Below, in pieces: positions 1 through 63,877 of a DNA stretch of 64,000 nt; position 1 is the first letter of the stretch; each line of letters opens with the position of its first letter. The notes beneath the pieces were generated by a model, which saw only the letters and a list, made by a program, of their open reading frames with translations, was not told the DNA's origin and did no database searches. The DNA comes from an uncultured Candidatus Saccharibacteria bacterium (GTDB lineage Bacteria; Patescibacteriota; Saccharimonadia; Saccharimonadales; Saccharimonadaceae), in contig CANOTH010000003.1 of assembly GCA_947570505.1 (NCBI GenBank), positions 1 to 64,000 on the forward strand, given 5' to 3'. The position numbers and the translations under genes are program-made.

Positions 1-96
1 GTGGCTAGCTGTATGATGGCGGACATTCAAAAATCTCGCGGTGAGAGTGCCGATCGGAACAAAGTTGGCATGCGAGGTAGCAAGTGGATGGAGTAG
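1..96 (+). CDS. possible C-terminal end of a gene cut by the window edge
   Basis: Frame 1 is open from the first base to a TAG at 94-96 (31 codons), giving a basic, hydrophilic tail that ends GSKWME. No start lies inside the window unless the initial GTG is used. I do not recognise the product. The reading frame could be chance, since the sequence right after it is non-coding and full of hairpins. Best treated as the possible 3' end of a gene that begins to the left. Confidence 0.2.
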   Translation: MASCMMADIQKSRGESADRNKVGMRGSKWME

Positions 97-138
97 AGTT
101 CGGAGACAAGTAGTAAAAATGAAAAAGAAGGAGGAATA

Positions 139-320
139 GGCAGACTAAATTGGTGCAACGTAGTTGCCCATTTGGTCTGCCGTTTTGGGGCTTTAGCCCC
201 AATGATGGTAAAAACATTTGCTTCCAGAAATGGAAGCAAAGTACGTTGGATCTGCGACTGATAAAGTCGCAGCGGGCTATCAGCCCGTTAAGCTACTTTT
301 CCACAAGAAATGCATTCTTG
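139..320 (+). ncRNA. tandem array of six hairpins (candidate structured RNA or DNA element)
   Basis: Six inverted repeats follow one another almost without spacers: 139-181 (long imperfect stem), 185-202 (TTGGGGC / GCCCCAA, TTTA loop), 217-240 (10-bp perfect stem with a GAAA tetraloop), 252-272 (CTGCGAC / GTCGCAG), 273-287 (CGGGCT / AGCCCG) and 304-320 (CAAGAA / TTCTTG). No credible coding frame crosses them. A GNRA-type loop and back-to-back stems suggest an RNA, but strand and function are unknown. Being about 1 kb from a retroelement RT makes a link to its RNA worth testing; the sequence does not prove one. Confidence 0.45.
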
Positions 321-618
321 ATCATGCCTATGCTTGTTAATTTCTTCCAGTTTGTGCTAGGCTACAATGTAGGGCAACCGCAACTTGACAAAGAATATTA
401 GCAAACTATGCAGGGGAAGGGAGGAAGAGTTTGTATGATGATAGAATTCGACTTTTGGATCTTTTATTTTAGCCTCACAATTATAAAGCTAAAAATTACT
501 CGCGCTAGAAAGCGCAAGTAATCAACAAACTAATAATTCCATTCTCGCACAACTTTTAGACCTAGTCAAGAGGGCGGTTGTCCTGATAAGATCAGATAAA
601 ATATGATGGGACGATAAT
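321..618. other. non-coding stretch with one hairpin and a putative promoter
   Basis: No gene is evident. A further hairpin sits at 496-521 (TTACT-c-GCGCT, AGAA loop, AGCGC-a-AGTAA). AT-rich boxes around 596-608 (TAAAAT, TATGAT) lie just before the ATG at 619 and probably form the promoter of the nuclease gene, whose mRNA would be almost leaderless. Confidence 0.4.
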
Positions 619-1011
619 ATGAAGAAATTGGAATTCGAAAGTGGTATTTTCATTCCCGCTAATCGTAAAGTATGGGAACATGAACGGCATGTAGCTGAAA
701 TATTAGCACAAGCAGGGCATTACGTTGAGTTTATATTGGAACATACTCAGAGGAGTGCGGACATTTTATTAGACGGAGTACCATATGAGATCAAATCGCC
801 TAAAACAACTTCAGCAAACTCGCTAGAACATATTATAAAAAAGGGCTTACGGCAGTGTTCAAATCTTATTATTGATTCATCAAGGACGAGGATGCATGAT
901 GATAATTTAAGAAAGTTTTTGATTTCGCAGATGCGCTCTAGAAGGCAAATAAAGCATATGCTATTAATTGCGAAGCGCGGTCAAATTGTTGACATCTCTG
1001 AGCTGATCTGA
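619..1011 (+). CDS. CdiA C-terminal-like nuclease domain protein (PD-(D/E)xK type)
   Basis: A 130-aa protein. From about residue 46 it reads SADILLDGVPYEIKSP, then a helix with regularly spaced polar residues, then QCSNLIIDSSRTR and a C-terminal strand (MLLIAKRGQIVDI). The D...E-I-K core matches the Asp-x(n)-Glu-x-Lys site of the PD-(D/E)xK fold. The following SNLIID-R pattern is what I associate with CdiA-CT tRNase-like proteins found in toxins and in phage or mobile elements. It stands alone here, with no toxin-delivery protein or obvious immunity gene, so a role as toxin or mobile-element nuclease is inference. It has no clear Shine-Dalgarno and starts close to its promoter. A rho-independent terminator follows and separates it from the convergent RT gene. 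Confidence 0.65.
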   Translation: MKKLEFESGIFIPANRKVWEHERHVAEILAQAGHYVEFILEHTQRSADILLDGVPYEIKSPKTTSANSLEHIIKKGLRQCSNLIIDSSRTRMHDDNLRKFLISQMRSRRQIKHMLLIAKRGQIVDISELI

Positions 1012-1026
1012 TAAGATAGAATTATC

Positions 1027-1073
1027 GAAACCTTGCACGGCGCCGAAGGTACCTACCGCAGGGTTTCTTTTTT
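1027..1073 (+). terminator. rho-independent terminator of the nuclease gene
   Basis: GAAACCTTGC at 1027-1036 pairs with GCAGGGTTTC ending at 1067, with a small inner GG-CC stem, followed by a run of T. Confidence 0.75.
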
Positions 1074-1124
1074 GTTTTGCTGTTTTTTCAAATTATCTTC
1101 AATCGTATTAGACCACATATCGAG

Positions 1125-1280
1125 CTACATTTGTAGCGCAAAGTTTTTTAACCAGCTCTTAAATTCATCTTGGGCTGAAAGGCAGGTCTCGCGCAGATAC
1201 TTGCCAACATTAAACCATTCTTTGCGGCTGTCGCTGGTGCCGTTTTTTGAAAATGAAATGTAATCGCTTGGGGCGCTCAA
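1125..1280 (-). CDS. small ORF immediately downstream of the reverse transcriptase
   Basis: On the minus strand a frame different from the RT stays open from inside the RT 3' end to a TAG at 1125-1127. It encodes a protein-like sequence containing SKNGTSDSRKEWFNVGKYL and DEFKSWLKNFALQM. The only usable start I see is TTG at 1280, giving 51 aa; the open frame extends further upstream and overlaps the last RT codons. It may be a small DGR accessory protein, a frameshifted C-terminal extension of the RT, or a degraded gene. I do not recognise the family. Confidence 0.35.
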   Translation of the reverse strand: MSAPSDYISFSKNGTSDSRKEWFNVGKYLRETCLSAQDEFKSWLKNFALQM

Positions 1281-1300
1281 TTGCCGATAAATTTGTTGGA

Positions 1301-2530
1301 TTAGTTGGGGCCGGAGGAGAGCTTGGGCTTCTTCATGCGCTTCCTATATTCGCGATATTCCTCTTCCGAGAGCCAATTAAAGTCCCAGCCGAAGCTATCA
1401 AACAGTTGCCTGAGGAATTTACGGCTATTGATGTGCTTCATGTAGCCCATGCGCGAGAAGATCCCTTCCACATCGCCTTCACCGTTGGTGGCGAGACGAT
1501 AAGCAGCTTTGTAGCAATTTTGGCGCACGCGTTTGCCGGGATAAATAAACCCAGGATAAACTACTGCTCCAATGAATGGTACTCCTTTATCTACTGGTTC
1601 GTGATAGATTTTCTTAGGATGGAGGGTAAGCTTTAGCTCGGTCTTAAGATATTTACGAATCACTCCGATATCGCGCAAAAGTTGAGCACGTTTCTCCATC
1701 GGGACAATGATGAAAAAGTCGTCTACATAGCGACCGTAATGCTCGTAACCGAGGTCGAAACGCACGAAACGATCCAGCTGATCTAAGAAAATATTAGATA
1801 AAAGTTGGGAAGTAAGATTGCCAATGACGATGCCACGTTCGGGCGGTTGGTTGAACAGACTTTTGCTTTTAGGTAGTTTGCGCCAGTCGGAGCGGCGACC
1901 GCGAATCGCAATATCGTCCATCGGGTGGTCAAAGATAATCTCATGCCAGAGATATTTGAGAGTTTGGTAATATTGGTGTTTATCGGCCGGATGACAATGA
2001 ATACCATTCGCTGCATCGGGCAAGGAACTATGATAGAATTGCCGCTCTAAACCCCAGAGTACTCGGTCATAGAGCTTTTGGTGGTTGAGGCTCATGAAGT
2101 ATCCTTGAATATCTAGTTTAACAGCGAAAGCTGGCTTGGTATAATTATCGGTAGCGCTGCGGATATGTCGGGCGAGGCGCTTTTGGCCGTAGAGGGTGCC
2201 TTTACCTTTGCGACAAGAATAAGAATCGGGAATGAAACGGCGATCCCACCAATCAACGCAATTATTATAGAGTAGGTGATGGACAATGCGATCGCGAAAC
2301 GGGGCAGCCACGATCTCGCGGATGACTGGATCGCGTACGATGAAGGCTACACCTTTGCTAGGTTTATAGTAGCGACGGATAATACTGTCTCTTAGGTCAA
2401 TGATGTCTTCCATATCATTTAGCTCAAAACGATGCTCATCGACGGTGTGACGTTTGCCTTTGCGGGCGGTGTGATAAGCTTCCCACAACTCACTGAGTAG
2501 GAACGATTCAAAGCGGGTATTATTTGTCAT
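1301..2530 (-). CDS. reverse transcriptase of diversity-generating-retroelement (DGR) type
   Basis: A 409-aa RNA-directed DNA polymerase. Visible RT motifs in order: KLDIQGYFMSL (motif A, catalytic Asp), GIVIGNLTSQLLSNIFLDQL (motif B) and YGRYVDDFFII (YxDD, two catalytic Asp), then FIGAVVYPG near the thumb. IGNLTSQ with Gln, where group II intron RTs have SP, is the known hallmark of DGR RTs, which copy a template RNA with adenine-directed errors into a variable repeat. It lacks the maturase and endonuclease domains of group II introns. I place the start at ATG 2530, which overlaps the upstream gene's stop by 11 nt and suggests translational coupling; an in-frame upstream start at 2593 also exists. 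No template repeat is visible next to it. The only adenine-pattern repeat pair in the window lies at 44.1 and 63.6 kb. Confidence 0.88.
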   Translation of the reverse strand: MTNNTRFESFLLSELWEAYHTARKGKRHTVDEHRFELNDMEDIIDLRDSIIRRYYKPSKGVAFIVRDPVIREIVAAPFRDRIVHHLLYNNCVDWWDRRFIPDSYSCRKGKGTLYGQKRLARHIRSATDNYTKPAFAVKLDIQGYFMSLNHQKLYDRVLWGLERQFYHSSLPDAANGIHCHPADKHQYYQTLKYLWHEIIFDHPMDDIAIRGRRSDWRKLPKSKSLFNQPPERGIVIGNLTSQLLSNIFLDQLDRFVRFDLGYEHYGRYVDDFFIIVPMEKRAQLLRDIGVIRKYLKTELKLTLHPKKIYHEPVDKGVPFIGAVVYPGFIYPGKRVRQNCYKAAYRLATNGEGDVEGIFSRMGYMKHINSRKFLRQLFDSFGWDFNWLSEEEYREYRKRMKKPKLSSGPN

Positions 2531-3515
2531 TTTTCTGTTTCGCTTCTTCGGTTTTGAGCTGCTTAGCATATTCGCGAGCGGTGATGCGCTCAATTTCTAC
2601 TAGTTTTTCGAGGATGCTACAAAGTTCGCGGTGATGCATGAGCCGGAGATTTTCGATATTAGCCATATTGTTACGGAGATTGCGGGTGTAGATAAGAATA
2701 TTGAAGAGATTTTGAGCTTGTGCGGAATGCGATCGTGGTTCTTTGACGGTGGAGACGGAGATATTTTGTAATTGTCGACGAATGATCCCGGCAGTAGGGC
2801 GAGCATTAGCAAAATTGAGATAGCTGACTAGAATTTCGTTGGCATCCAAAATCATTTGCTCAATGAGGGTGGCGCGGGCTAGGGAATCGGAGATTCTTTT
2901 ACAGTTATGATAGAGCAAGCGGTTCATTTCTAGGATGGTAGTGTAGAGCTCGGGTACGGGCGACTTAGGTACAATGATAGAAGTAATGCGTTCCACATCT
3001 TGGCGGGAACGATCACGCAGTTTGGCAATTTGTTCGTCGCTGTAGGTGCGAGGTAATTTATAAAAATGTAGTTCAGTAGTACTAAGCTTGCGGTCGGGAA
3101 ATATGTTAATTTCGGCGAGTTGGAATCCTAGTTGGTTCAGAGCGCGGATCGAGATGATACCATCTTCGGATCTTGAATAGTCGTCGGAATCGTTTTTGAT
3201 ACTATAACGACGATGAATCCGATCGGCAATGGTCAAAGTATAATAGAGGACGGAATGACCGCCAATTTTGGAGAAATTATCCGTAGAATCGAACAAGAGT
3301 AGGTGATGATCATTGGTTTGTTCGAATTCCATAGCCTGAGCTTTGATGTGCCGTTGGCGCTGGCGAAGAGCCTGACGTGCGGCACGCAAAGATGACTTAA
3401 TCTCGCGCGAAGGCGGATTTTCTTGCAACTGTTTTATTTTGCTCTCAAGCTGGTGTAGATCCAGCTGAGCGAATTCATCGATTTCGGAAGTTTTGATAGG
3501 AGACAGCTTTGTCAT
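2520..3515 (-). CDS. DGR accessory protein, probable MutS-I-like domain fused to an Avd-like helical domain
   Basis: A 331-aa protein directly upstream of, and overlapping, the RT. The N-terminal part (about residues 1-60) is helical and charged. Residues about 72-155 (LLLFDSTDNFSKIGG ... RALNQLGFQLAEI) resemble the mismatch-recognition domain I of MutS; MutS-like accessory genes are known beside DGR RTs. Residues about 190-320 form long amphipathic helices that could be the four-helix bundle of Avd, the structural cofactor that binds the RT and its RNA. The fusion interpretation is inference from pattern and position; no homology search was possible. There is a hairpin (CCTTAG / CTAAGG) and AT-rich sequence just upstream. 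No other gene follows the RT in the operon except the short ORF at 1125-1280. Confidence 0.55.
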   Translation of the reverse strand: MTKLSPIKTSEIDEFAQLDLHQLESKIKQLQENPPSREIKSSLRAARQALRQRQRHIKAQAMEFEQTNDHHLLLFDSTDNFSKIGGHSVLYYTLTIADRIHRRYSIKNDSDDYSRSEDGIISIRALNQLGFQLAEINIFPDRKLSTTELHFYKLPRTYSDEQIAKLRDRSRQDVERITSIIVPKSPVPELYTTILEMNRLLYHNCKRISDSLARATLIEQMILDANEILVSYLNFANARPTAGIIRRQLQNISVSTVKEPRSHSAQAQNLFNILIYTRNLRNNMANIENLRLMHHRELCSILEKLVEIERITAREYAKQLKTEEAKQKNDK

Positions 3516-3635
3516 TTTTATAAGTGTGTGTTTTTGGTTCCTTAGAGATATATTATCCCTAAGGATATTATAGCTTATGATAACTTAAAATACAAAAACA
3601 TAAGTTGTATGATATAATGGTAGAAAAGGAGGGAT

Positions 3636-3938
3636 ATGATTAAGATTGATGAGGATTTTGTGGCCGAAGTGGGTCTCAGCGAAATGCCGCCAGCGGAGAA
3701 GGAAGTTTTTATGGCTGAAGCAAAAGAAGAATTGGAGATGCGGGTCGGCGAGCATTTGGGGCGAGATTTATCTGATGAACAGCTAGAAGAGTTCGTCCAG
3801 ATTCAGGATCCGCGGCTAGCGGCAGAATGGTTAGAAAAGCATACTCCGGGTTATCGTGAGGCGGTGAAGCAGATTTTTCAGAATTTTAAAGAAGAGCTGT
3901 TTGCTGAGCGGGCGGAGATTTTGGGTGCTGCAGCTTAG
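3636..3938 (+). CDS. DUF5663-like small protein (CPR family)
   Basis: A 100-aa acidic, helical protein with the pattern ELEMRVGEHL ... LSDEQLEEFVQI ... AAEWLEKHTPGYREAVKQIF, which I associate with DUF5663, a small family common in candidate phyla bacteria. Function is unknown. A distant paralogue lies at 25009-25338 (shared LSDEQL / LTDEQL and a helix of about 30 residues after it). It has a TATAAT box at about 3614 and a strong Shine-Dalgarno (AAGGAGGG). It converges on fmt: the two stop codons overlap with no terminator between them. Confidence 0.7.
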   Translation: MIKIDEDFVAEVGLSEMPPAEKEVFMAEAKEELEMRVGEHLGRDLSDEQLEEFVQIQDPRLAAEWLEKHTPGYREAVKQIFQNFKEELFAERAEILGAAA

Positions 3939-22454: not shown

Positions 22455-22656
22455 CTAGTATATCAAACAGCGGACGGGGTCACCGATGGCACGACCAGTA
22501 ATATCGGATGAGTGAATAACCCGAGGAGCAAAGTTGAGGTACAGTGCACGAGGTAAGTCGGACGAGCTATCAGTAGCAGAGCGAGACCACATACGACCAT
22601 CAAGACCAAAGTGTCTCAAAGATCCGCTAACTAAAGCAATAAGCCCGCTACGGACG
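22455..22656 (-). repeat. variable cassette A (FISUMP/CLec-like domain end)
   Basis: The 5' border CGTCCGTAGCGG is at 22645-22656 and the 3' border CCGTCCGCTGTTTGATATA ends at the stop 22455. It encodes VRSGLIALVSGSLRHFG ... DPVRCLIY. It lacks the usual W-S-x-x-x-x-Y-S spacing in places and has GDP for GFP, so it is probably diverged. There is no upstream domain: the frame starts a short way outside the border. Confidence 0.8.
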
Positions 22657-22921
22657 TTATCCCCCTTGGGACGGATCCTGATAAAAAGGGCTGCAAATAG
22701 AGTAAAAAGTAGATTCTGCACAGGCTTACATTTTTTAAAAAATGTAAGCCACATCTACCACTAATAACAGGGGTGGAGATAAAATTTTAGGTTATCATTT
22801 TTTCATTTTTGATAGTATAAAATATACTAGCAATATTACATTACATCCCCACAGTAGCTCAGGCATCTTATCTTTTCTTCGATATCACAGATGCCGACAG
22901 CTCACGTAGCCGGTTACGTCT

Positions 22922-23119
22922 ATACGGACGGGGAAACCGCGCCAGCGATAGTAATTGGTGGTTGTGCCGACACTAGAATCATTGAAGTAGAGGTATAAAG
23001 CACTAGTGGATCCAGCTGACGGTCCAGCATAATTTTCGGCGATATTTGACCAACTGTCGCCATCTTCACCAGGCCCACGTATGCTACTATTTTGGAGATA
23101 AACATTACCGCTACGGACG
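22922..23119 (-). repeat. variable cassette B, 3' end replaced
   Basis: The 5' border is at 23108-23119. It encodes FVRSGNVYLQNSSIRGPG ... YYRWRGFPVR, then departs from the family after CCGTCCG: GFPVRIDVTGYVSCRHL instead of CLVY. This marks a recombination or truncation point exactly inside the 3' border. Confidence 0.8.
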
Positions 23120-23341
23120 AAGTTTAACATGAACACGAATCATTTATGCAGGGGTGGGAAGGATATTTTTTGACTTCTAGGCAAGAATTAAGCATAAAAG
23201 GTATTGACTTTTTTGCTGATGTGTGCTAGACTAAAAATAAGTTAGATAATAAATAAACACATCTAACAAACAAAAATAAACATTACGAAAGCTAGAGTGT
23301 AGGCCGTAGTCAACAAACATAAACCTAATAAAGGAAAAACC

Positions 23342-30951: not shown

Positions 30952-31152
30952 TATACCAAACAGCGGACGGGGTAACCGTTGTAACGTGGATAGTGACCAG
31001 CGGGCCAAACAAGGTTGTAGTCGAAATTATTACCAAAACTGCGGGCTGCGGTAACAGAGGTATAATCTTGTAGGGCACTACTCCAATGAAAGCCGTTACG
31101 ACCGAAATGACTGAGACCACCATGTTGAGAATAAGTTTCTCCGCTACGGACG
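30951..31152 (-). repeat. variable cassette C
   Basis: The 5' border is at 31141-31152 and the 3' border starts at 30951, directly at the stop codon of the glycosyltransferase. It encodes NFVRSGETYSQHGGLSHFG ... PRYNGYPVRCLVY. The reading frame is intact but there is no stop at the border: it runs a few codons into the opposite strand of the glycosyltransferase. Confidence 0.85.
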
Positions 31153-31200
31153 AAGTTTTTCTGCTCATCATCTGGACCATGTGTTATAATGGTAATAGTT

Positions 31201-33018: not shown

Positions 33019-33229
33019 ATTACCAAACAGCGGACGGGGGAGACCATACCAACGCGTACCATAATATGATGGGTTAACACCTGAGGCACTGAAGCGCAGA
33101 AAGATTCCTGTGGCTTTAAAAATATCGTCAATGTAGTCGACGGCAACACTGGGCAGACCATATCCATGGCTACCAAAAGTTGCTGGCAATCCCGTTACAA
33201 CGAACAAATCTATATACCCGCTACGGACG
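33019..33229 (-). repeat. variable cassette D, frameshifted
   Basis: The 5' border is at 33218-33229 and the 3' border is near 33019. It encodes DVRSGYIDLFVVTGLP ... ASGVNPSYYGTRWYGLP. One extra C in the final CCCCC run shifts the frame, so the end reads PRPLFGN instead of PVRCLV. It shares the ASGVNPS segment with cassettes G and K. Confidence 0.8.
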
Positions 33230-33435
33230 TCCGTAGCGGAGAGATCCGTCATGATGCTGGCACATTAAAGTATCCTAGCTTACGTGGTCATGTCTGGTCT
33301 CGTCTTGCCTTGGGCTATGGTTATAACGGATGGGCTAGTCGAGCATATACTCTGTATGCTGGTGATAATGGTACAAATCCTTCAAGCTCTGATGCTCGTT
33401 GGTACGGTGTCCCCGTCCGCTGTTTGGTATACTAG
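33228..33435 (+). repeat. variable cassette E, inverted next to D
   Basis: The 5' border is at 33228-33239 and the stop is at 33433-33435. It encodes DVRSGEIRHDAGTLKYPSLR ... WYGVPVRCLVY, intact. D and E meet head to head, and their borders create a 22-bp perfect palindrome at 33218-33239. The rest of 32827-33590 is AT-rich with nothing else evident except a promoter (TTGACT ... TATAAT, about 33488-33515) for the next gene. Confidence 0.85.
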
Positions 33436-36625: not shown

Positions 36626-36892
36626 CCGCTGTTTCTTAATGCTTATAGGGAATATTTTTAGCTCCATTATTCTCATAAGTAGTATATCAAACAGCGGACG
36701 GGGAAACCGAGATAACGATTATTTGGTCGGTCTGTTGCAGATACGGATGTTGGCCAAAAAGTTGGATAGTAACTGTTAGCCGAAGTAGCGGATATGTAAT
36801 TTCCGCTAATTGATGTCCAGAGATTGCCGTTTTGCCCCAAAAAACCTAAGAACTGATTGACATCAGCCAAGTTGACGTGCCCGCTACGGACA
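36626..36892 (-). repeat. variable cassette F with a short downstream inverted repeat
   Basis: The 5' border is at 36881-36892 and the 3' border at about 36682. It encodes VRSGHVNLADVNQFLGFLG ... NRYLGFPVRCLIYYL. Downstream, CCGCTGTTT (36626-36634) is an inverted copy of the cassette end (36689-36697), giving a stem with about 54 nt between. Here the long palindrome seen with A and G is absent. Confidence 0.85.
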
Positions 36893-36908
36893 GGATTTAT
36901 TAGTAAAA

Positions 36909-44124: not shown

Positions 44125-44333
44125 CTAGTATTACCAAACAGCGGACGGGGAAACCGTACCAACGAACATTGTTATCGGACGGGTTAACACCTGAGGCATT
44201 GAAGTTGAGGTTGTAAGCTTTAGCATTCCAGGTACCAGCCCCGTAAACAGTAGCAATACGAGACCAATCGTAGCCATTGATGCCGAAGTTCCTCAAAGCG
44301 CTATTATTAAGATTAATCCACCCGCTACGGACG
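44125..44333 (-). repeat. variable cassette G, adenine-rich, possible template-like copy
   Basis: The 5' border is at 44322-44333 and the 3' border near 44128. It encodes FVRSGWINLNNSALRNFG ... NAKAYNLNFNASGVNPSDNN ... GFPVRCLV with AAT and AAC codons at the positions that differ in cassette K. All nine differences to K fall on adenines of this coding strand (plus-strand positions 44170, 44173, 44175, 44199, 44200, 44206, 44227, 44268, 44278). That makes G the less mutated copy or a template-like repeat. Confidence 0.85.
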
Positions 44334-44345
44334 AAGCCTAGACTA

Positions 44346-44550
44346 TTATACCAAACAGCGGACGGGGAAACCACGGAAGCGATAGTTTTGGTCATATGAT
44401 GGACGGATGCCGCTGGTATAGAAGTCAAGGCCATAAGCATTGGCTGTGGTAAGTGATGAATAGACTCTAGCAATACTTGACCAACCATAGCCCCGGTTAC
44501 CGAAGTACACTATATGGCCATTGAGCAAATTTACCATCCCGCTACGGGCA
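44346..44550 (-). repeat. variable cassette H
   Basis: It lies 12 bp from G in the same orientation. Its 5' border is mutated to GCCCGTAGCGG (ARSG instead of VRSG, 44539-44550). It encodes SGMVNLLNGHIVYFGNRG ... YRFRGFPVRCLV and ends in TAA. The tandem of G and H shows that cassettes can be stacked. Confidence 0.85.
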
Positions 44551-44671
44551 TTAGTTAAACCAAAAACAGATCAATTTTATCTCTGTTATTCTCAAGTTGA
44601 ACTTGTAAACGGTTTACAAGTTGCCCTTTTTTGTTTTTGGCTTTCGCCCAGAGAATTCATATCAGTTACTT

Positions 44672-44879
44672 CGTCCGTAGCGGGAATATCAGCTTAAACA
44701 ACGGCTCACTGAGGGACTCGGGCTACATTGGCTACGACTGGTCGCGTACCTCTGTAGCTTACTACTCTGCGACCTCGGCTAACTCTTACTGGTTTGACTT
44801 TAATGTCTCAGAGTCTCGCCCGTCCTACGGCCCGTACAGTCGTTGGTACGGTTTCCCCGTCCGCTGTTTGGTATACTAG
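44672..44879 (+). repeat. variable cassette I
   Basis: It is opposite in direction to G and H. The 5' border is at 44672-44683 and the stop at 44877-44879. It encodes YFVRSGNISLNNGSLRDSG ... SRWYGFPVRCLVY, fully open. A hairpin CTTGTAAAC-g-GTTTACAAG lies just upstream (about 44605-44624) with a following T run, a probable terminator or barrier. Confidence 0.85.
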
Positions 44880-56769: not shown

Positions 56770-56971
56770 CTATACCAAACAGCGGACGGGGAAACCATCG
56801 TAACGATCGTATGGCCCAGCCGATGGAACGATTGAGACTCCAAACCAAAGGTGGTAGGCAAGAGCATCAATATCTGAACTGTATTTTGCTGCGGTATTGG
56901 ACCAAGTTCTACTAGATCCATTAAATCCCCTCAAAGCGCCGGTATTGAGATAGACGTTCCCGCTACGGACG
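56770..56971 (-). repeat. variable cassette J
   Basis: The 5' border is at 56960-56971 and the stop at 56770. It encodes YFVRSGNVYLNTGALRGFNG ... DRYDGFPVRCLV, fully open, with GTATAGCTAG at the end as in cassette K. No signal peptide or upstream domain: the frame begins a few codons before the border. The rest of 56972-57337 is AT-rich without a gene. Confidence 0.85.
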
Positions 56972-57337
56972 AAGTAAAGAGGCATAAATCGGGTACCCGG
57001 TATATTGTTTTTAAGCTGTAGTTCTCTGTTTTTGTTCGGGTTTTGTTCGGACAATGGAGAATATGAAAAAGTAAGTTTTTTGCGCAAACTTGAATAATTA
57101 GCATACAGTGTGTGATGGGTTTGTTTTGTGTGAAAAAAAGAGGGGAATTATTGAAAAATAAAAAAGCTTACGGAGTTGGGGTGGCTGAGGGTGGCTGGTT
57201 ACATAAAAGGATTTTTGATTGAATATATGTTGATACGTATACCCGTCCACTGATTGTATGTCGTAAAAGATATATTGTGCGACATAAGTAGTGTAGGTTC
57301 GATAACATATTAACATTAACCAAACGAGGTAAAAATA

Positions 57338-63559: not shown

Positions 63560-63764
63560 CTATACCAAACAGCGGACGGGGAAACCGTACCAACGAACAT
63601 AGTCACCGGACGGGTTAACACCTGAGGCAGAGAAGTCGAGGTTGTAAGCTTTAGCATCCCAGGTACCAGCCCCGTAAACAGTAGCAATACGAGACCAACC
63701 GTAGCCATGGATGCCGAAGTTCCTCAAAGCGCTATTATTAAGATTAATCCACCCGCTACGGACG
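63560..63764 (-). repeat. variable cassette K, adenine-mutated sibling of G
   Basis: The 5' border is at 63753-63764 and the stop at 63560. It encodes FVRSGWINLNNSALRNFGIH ... DAKAYNLDFSASGVNPSGDY ... GFPVRCLV. It differs from cassette G at nine bases, every one an adenine in G. Coding changes are Asn to His, Asp, Ser or Tyr and Asp to Gly, typical of DGR variable repeats. Confidence 0.88.
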
Positions 63765-63877
63765 AAAGATTTCTTATAAGCGATGATTCCGTCCAAAATA
63801 TAGGATTTTAAAAGATAATTCTCCAGGAGACTATAATTCTATTGTATCACGAGTTTTGTAAAAAGTCAATATTAATT

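Follow-up and report, generated by a model that had tools for sequence, protein, structure and literature searches.

A probable trans-acting DGR with dispersed templates and a dispersed pool of VR cassettes in an uncultured Candidatus Saccharibacteria bacterium

Results

We found that a DGR of an uncultured Candidatus Saccharibacteria bacterium probably works in trans and that its several templates, like its large pool of cassettes, are dispersed, a reading which is based on sequence comparison. The window analysed here (64,000 nucleotides) lies at the head of contig C3, the first position of which is window position 1. The genome carrying the window (G000) is a 1.23-Mb MAG of 72 contigs with 6.5% contamination, so its cassette totals may include strain variants; G039 and G042 (1% contamination) give the same picture. 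The contig ends of the assembly overlap by exactly 55 nt and contigs often terminate in cassettes. All of the accessory-gene relatives which bear names are uncultured Candidatus Saccharibacteria.

Template RNA genes

G000 contains five unlinked template-RNA genes, on contigs C1, C2, C6, C9 and C15. Each comprises a promoter-like -10, a conserved, covarying leader of ~190 nt, a 206-nt TR and the tail CGCGGTTCGGTGCCGATCTTT; this 18-nt tail is identical in all five templates, every one of which is remote from the reverse transcriptase (RT). The exact tail occurs five times in the whole of G000 and not at all on C3. The templates keep the cassette 5' border and the CCCCGTCCGC motif, followed by CYTRTTTTRTCGCGGTTCGGTGCCGATCTTT and usually then by a hairpin, and their transcripts are expected to end after GTGCCGATCTTT at the five loci. 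VRs end in ...CGTCCGCTGTTTGGTATACTAG and TRs in ...CGTCCGCYTRTTTTRTCGCGGTTCGGTGCCGATC, giving the differing TR and VR 3' ends (IMH vs IMH*) of a DGR.

The ~190-nt leader is common to the five G000 templates, G042 and G039. Within its alignment 15 of the 31 predicted pairs are changed on both sides (for example GAAGTTA/TAACTTC, GAGGCTG/CAGCTTC and GAAGTTC/GAACTTC), and a -10-like TATGNTAAAAT is found upstream of nearly all leaders. The leader covariance model matched 6 of 80 congeners: G000, G039 (12 loci), G042 (1 locus) and, weakly, G013, G040 and G014. Every genome with leader matches carries a close relative of the window RT. All 12 loci of G039 have leader, TR and tail, with none adjoining the G039 RT, and in G040 the weak matches recur at a spacing of ~440 nt with cassettes in between.

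Template leaders were also observed upstream of cassettes with a VR-type 3' end at C14:25381, C11:219 and C28:3596 of G000; these are apparently relics or converted templates. An interrupted RT adjoins a leader and a cassette in G013 (C16:2123-3376), a genome with 74 cassette matches, and the system of that genome is possibly recently dead.

Substitution at template adenines

We compared 17 VRs of G000 which were ≤ 16% divergent from their nearest template. Changes from TR to VR were found at 213/639 adenines (33%), compared to 75/956 C (8%), 46/824 G (6%) and 38/845 T (4%), that is 0.33 vs 0.045–0.078, and the reverse comparison, with the VR as reference, gave no excess at A. The 18 VRs compared to the single, RT-linked TR of G042 were changed at 341/810 A (42%), 47/1044 C (4.5%), 59/864 G (6.8%) and 21/828 T (2.5%), that is 0.42 vs 0.025–0.068. 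Asn AAY codons fall from 26% in the G042 TR to 3% in its VRs and from 17% to 7% in G000. The G042 target gene, which is cut by a contig end, has the TR sequence with changed Asn codons up to that end. Judged by sequence, this adenine-focused change from TR to VR is the signature of a DGR.

It should be noted that only about a quarter of G000 cassettes resemble an existing template closely enough for this comparison, older cassettes differing from the templates at all bases, and that none of the 38 VRs read in G039 lies within 30% of its 12 templates, which is too distant for the adenine test. The initial annotation had proposed that the system may act in trans on remote cassettes. This proposal is supported by the five unlinked templates, which are of one family with the cassettes and from which the cassettes differ mainly at template adenines.

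VR cassettes

Searching G000 with one cassette gave 133 matches, nearly all of them stop-free, and 124 full-length cassettes were read. Besides the five templates there are ~119 full-length VR cassettes of ~206 nt, mostly intergenic and with an open frame, including 11 in the window (Table 1). The borders ACTTCGTCCGTAGCGG and CCCCGTCCGCTGTTTGGTA are near-invariant in DNA, including third codon positions, and this holds across > 120 copies, while the interior is variable. Only 7 of 124 cassettes lie mainly inside ORFs of ≥ 200 aa, compared to 69% of random positions, and a stop codon was found in 1 of 121, where a neutral simulation expects 20–80%. The cassettes avoid genes and their frames stay open. 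Within the window, the cassettes at 63563 and 44132 differ at 11 sites, 9 of which are A in the latter. Cassettes were oriented against the G-rich strand at ratios of 81:36 in G000, 49:16 in G042 and 25:25 in G039; we leave this bias without interpretation because gene direction is uncontrolled in these counts.

Table 1 Location of the features identified in the window
Feature	Position	Strand	Remarks
Second conserved flank element CTCGCGGTGAGAGTGCCGATCGG	17-59	+	Resembles template tail
Conserved hairpin element	131-190	+	Flanks RT locus in five Saccharibacteria genomes; outer limit of relatives' TR place
Small ORF	619-1011	+	CdiA C-terminal toxin domain, PF18451, E 1.4e-10
DGR-type RT, 409 aa	1301-2530	-	IGNLTSQ and YVDD; phrog_1423, E 1.7e-72
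Accessory protein, 331 aa	2520-3515	-	Predicted MutS-domain-I-like N-terminus and Avd four-helix bundle
DUF5663 gene	3636-3938	+	PF18908, E 5.2e-14
VR cassette	22461-22660	-	First in window
VR cassette	22915-23123	-	Altered 3' end
VR cassette	30954-31156	-	None at syntenic G039 site
VR cassette	33021-33233	-	Head-to-head with 33224-33429; 4 nt from cassette C2:49821
VR cassette	33224-33429	+	Head-to-head with 33021-33233; head-to-head pair here in G039 too
VR cassette	36685-36896	-	
VR cassette	44132-44337	-	C15 template cohort
VR cassette	44349-44554	-	
VR cassette	44668-44873	+	C9 template cohort; A 7/39, other bases 8/158
VR cassette	56773-56975	-	G039: no cassette found ≤ 3 kb from left flanking gene
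VR cassette	63563-63768	-	C15 cohort

The target gene and cassette movement

A long upstream frame was found for only one cassette, on contig C27. This gene encodes a protein of 609 aa with an N-terminal hydrophobic segment, the last ~70 residues of which are the cassette, so that the VR is at the C-terminus. The product is predicted to be secreted and FISUMP-like, with a match to Fib_succ_major (E 0.031) which is below the cut-off. No other full-length homologue of its upstream part was found in G000: as in silent-cassette systems, one expressed locus, the one full-length target among the G000 homologues, is accompanied by silent cassettes. The C27 VR and cassette C19:7633 have 2 differences in 212 nt and unrelated flanks.

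Across ten related cassette pairs, identity stopped right at the cassette borders, with unrelated flanks, in eight; one pair also shares its 5' flank and one has matching flanks with differing cassettes. Pairs of equal length had 0–11 core differences. The site at 30954 is filled in G000 and empty in G039, while G000 and G039 both carry a head-to-head cassette pair flanked by the same two genes. The border-limited identity and this filled or empty site indicate that cassettes are exchanged as units and also arise at new sites.

The RT locus and its empty template place

The initial annotation had recognised an RT with the IGNLTSQ and YVDD motifs of DGR enzymes, and this was confirmed by a match to phrog_1423 (Reverse transcriptase, phage RT family) spanning residues 14–404; Pfam RVT_1 also matches (E 1.3e-9). 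The RT gene overlaps the accessory gene. G000 contains two RT matches, the second being on contig C22 (L003). We treated the C22 RT as a contaminant because the contig is Bacteroides-phage-like and a VR-like coding stretch belonging to this RT lies immediately upstream of it, and we rejected it as the owner of the cassettes, its target being different. C22 is a case of contamination in which a contig with its own DGR lies inside this MAG.

DGRs usually, though not strictly, carry the TR near the RT. This is the arrangement in G042, where ~150 nt separate the RT from a downstream TR on the same strand and the conserved hairpin element lies beyond the TR, and in L191, where the order is RT, leader-TR-tail, hairpin and second element; in both, templates of this leader family directly adjoin orthologues of the window RT. 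The window, G039 and L188 have both flank elements and an empty template place, and the window DNA between these elements and the RT contains other ORFs and no template. As both elements are present and the place between them and the RT is empty, the TR has been lost from the place which it ancestrally occupied, and its absence is no edge effect.

That no cassette borders lie within 1-3640, as had been reported, held on searching: this interval contains no template, the first cassette is at 22461, the template-leader model R1 has no match anywhere in the window and no template tail is on C3. The suggestion that the template may lie to the left of the window was not upheld, since the syntenic place is inside the window and empty, the TR of G042 and L191 sitting between the RT and the flank elements. 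We also rejected a template cut by the left window edge, for which the likeness of window 35-58 to the template tail might have argued, because L191 and G042 have the same element besides a real TR, further from the RT.

The two flank elements, which are conserved near the RT in five genomes, are possibly a separate structured RNA; Rfam searches of the window and of 1-1300 gave no family at useful scores. The element at 17-59 is found again at C11:874-928, where a template-type terminator is joined to it. Exact 55-nt overlaps join window 1-55 to C11:874-928 and the end of C27 to C11:586-640, so a walk from C27 through C11 to the window is possible, in which the target VR would sit ~270 nt left of position 1. 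These assembly overlaps suggest that the DNA left of the window is a VR cassette, which may belong to the full-length target gene of C27; C11 itself has another cassette at the place where that VR would sit. At the template place of the relatives the window has the small ORF with a CdiA toxin domain, and G039 has a different ORF there.

The accessory protein

Sequence-only family searches with the accessory protein gave nothing significant, and PF01624 matched 1 of the 24 family members, weakly (E 0.041). An AlphaFold model built from 24 homologues (pLDDT 89.6) places an Avd four-helix bundle at residues 184–324, of which residues 188–324 compare to BPP-1 Avd 4dwl with Z 14.9 and rmsd 1.6 over 109/110 residues and to the Avd of the DGR ribonucleoprotein 8ub7 with Z 14.6; two S23-type four-helix proteins score slightly above Avd. 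The C-terminal half is thus firmly predicted to be Avd, an accessory protein of DGRs. When the N-terminal domain was modelled alone (pLDDT 92.9), E. coli MutS domain I topped the list for residues 52–147 (Z 5.5–6.3, ~85 residues, rmsd ~4), making MutS domain I a plausible assignment. The fusion of MutS-I and Avd-like parts which had been proposed is therefore well supported by fold for Avd and moderately for MutS-I, the suggested profile check having returned no significant family. The DUF5663 gene adjoins the accessory gene in the window, and similar ORFs also adjoin it in G039 and G042.

Discussion

We propose that the RT-accessory complex would bind the leader and tail common to every template RNA and make adenine-mutagenised cDNA from it, which would use the invariant borders to home to VR sites at any genomic position. 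The 3' end of the C27 gene for a full-length secreted FISUMP-like protein would be one of these sites. The gene-less cassettes would most likely be a pool of past and spare variants, swapping one by one both among themselves and with the expressed gene, and we infer that they supply that gene. In its fullest form, this is a genome-wide library DGR in which one RT reads many free-standing template genes, stocks > 100 silent cassettes and refits a single surface-protein gene; we give this form slightly under an even chance. If true, hypermutation and silent-cassette switching would be joined in one system of an episymbiotic bacterium.

The cassettes may instead be an archive. Mutagenesis by the DGR would then be confined to the VR of the expressed target. 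Spent VRs would be copied to cassettes, and from one cassette to another, by RecA-type gene conversion or duplication, the RT never writing a cassette directly. The cassette-limited identity between loci, including that of C27 and C19:7633, speaks for such copying, as does the resemblance of silent cassettes with one expressed locus to the vls and pil systems. However, many different G042 cassettes each derive separately from one TR, with ~40% of its A mutated, and an archive would require a large number of independent copying events; copying into cassette-free sites is no easier than for an RT which writes cassettes in trans. We consider an archive unlikely, while still taking it seriously.

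It is improbable, and was already disfavoured, that the cassettes are inert remains of a mobile or duplicating repeat next to an ordinary DGR whose template was missed by the assembly. The contigs which often end in cassettes with 55-nt overlaps would fit this, as would the site at 30954, but five templates with intact tail and leader exist, the place of an RT-linked template can be seen to be empty, and frames are kept open and borders invariant in > 120 copies. Nor do we expect, except at a very small probability, that the window RT serves an unrelated template and target while another RT of that cell owns the templates described here. The assembly does contain a second RT, but its contig C22 is Bacteroides-phage-like with a VR-like stretch of its own just upstream of the RT, templates of this leader family adjoin window-RT orthologues in G042 and L191, and all leader-bearing genomes have a close relative of the window RT.

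Like the pil system of Neisseria, in which antigenic variation uses silent cassettes, the trans-acting system proposed here combines a single expressed surface gene with numerous silent cassettes whose borders are shared, whereas its cassettes are spread genome-wide and bear the adenine signature of an RT-made origin. The same likeness and difference apply to the silent-cassette antigenic variation of Borrelia vls (PMC11499132). With Bordetella phage BPP-1 (bRT, Avd, TR, mtd) it shares a DGR-type RT, the Avd fold, A-mutagenesis and differing TR and VR 3' ends; it differs in that a predicted MutS-I-like domain is fused to Avd, the TR is non-adjacent, there are several templates, and the template RNA begins with a conserved leader (~190 nt) and finishes with a tail (~20 nt).

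Thiohalocapsa PB-PSB1 provides an established case of DGR action in trans (PMC10907252), and cyanobacteria have remote variable proteins and remote VRs (PMC7517822). These resemble the system proposed here in that RT-TR units diversify VRs elsewhere, with adenine-specific changes; their VRs lie in CLec-type domains, as ours may do. However, their remote VRs sit in genes and their templates in DGR loci, whereas here 5–12 free-standing template genes lie apart from the single RT, with no linkage to it, and the VRs, > 100 in number, are for the most part gene-less and intergenic. The DGR survey of Roux et al. 2021 states that remote targets are undetectable to it and has one clade in Patescibacteria (PMC8144416); this Patescibacteria (CPR) DGR clade 2 consists of cellular DGRs of the same superphylum, and is likened to ours by superphylum alone. 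The open-access papers searched contained no DGR in which one RT has several free-standing templates and none with > 100 gene-less VR cassettes; as the search covered open-access literature only, an earlier description may exist.

DGR surveys seek the template close to the RT, so that systems such as this one would escape them or be labelled incomplete. If our reading is true, one RT serves many unlinked templates via a shared leader and tail, which would define a minimal template RNA and open a way to modular targeted mutagenesis. An episymbiont with a reduced genome could in this manner keep in store a large repertoire of variants of a cell-surface binding domain.
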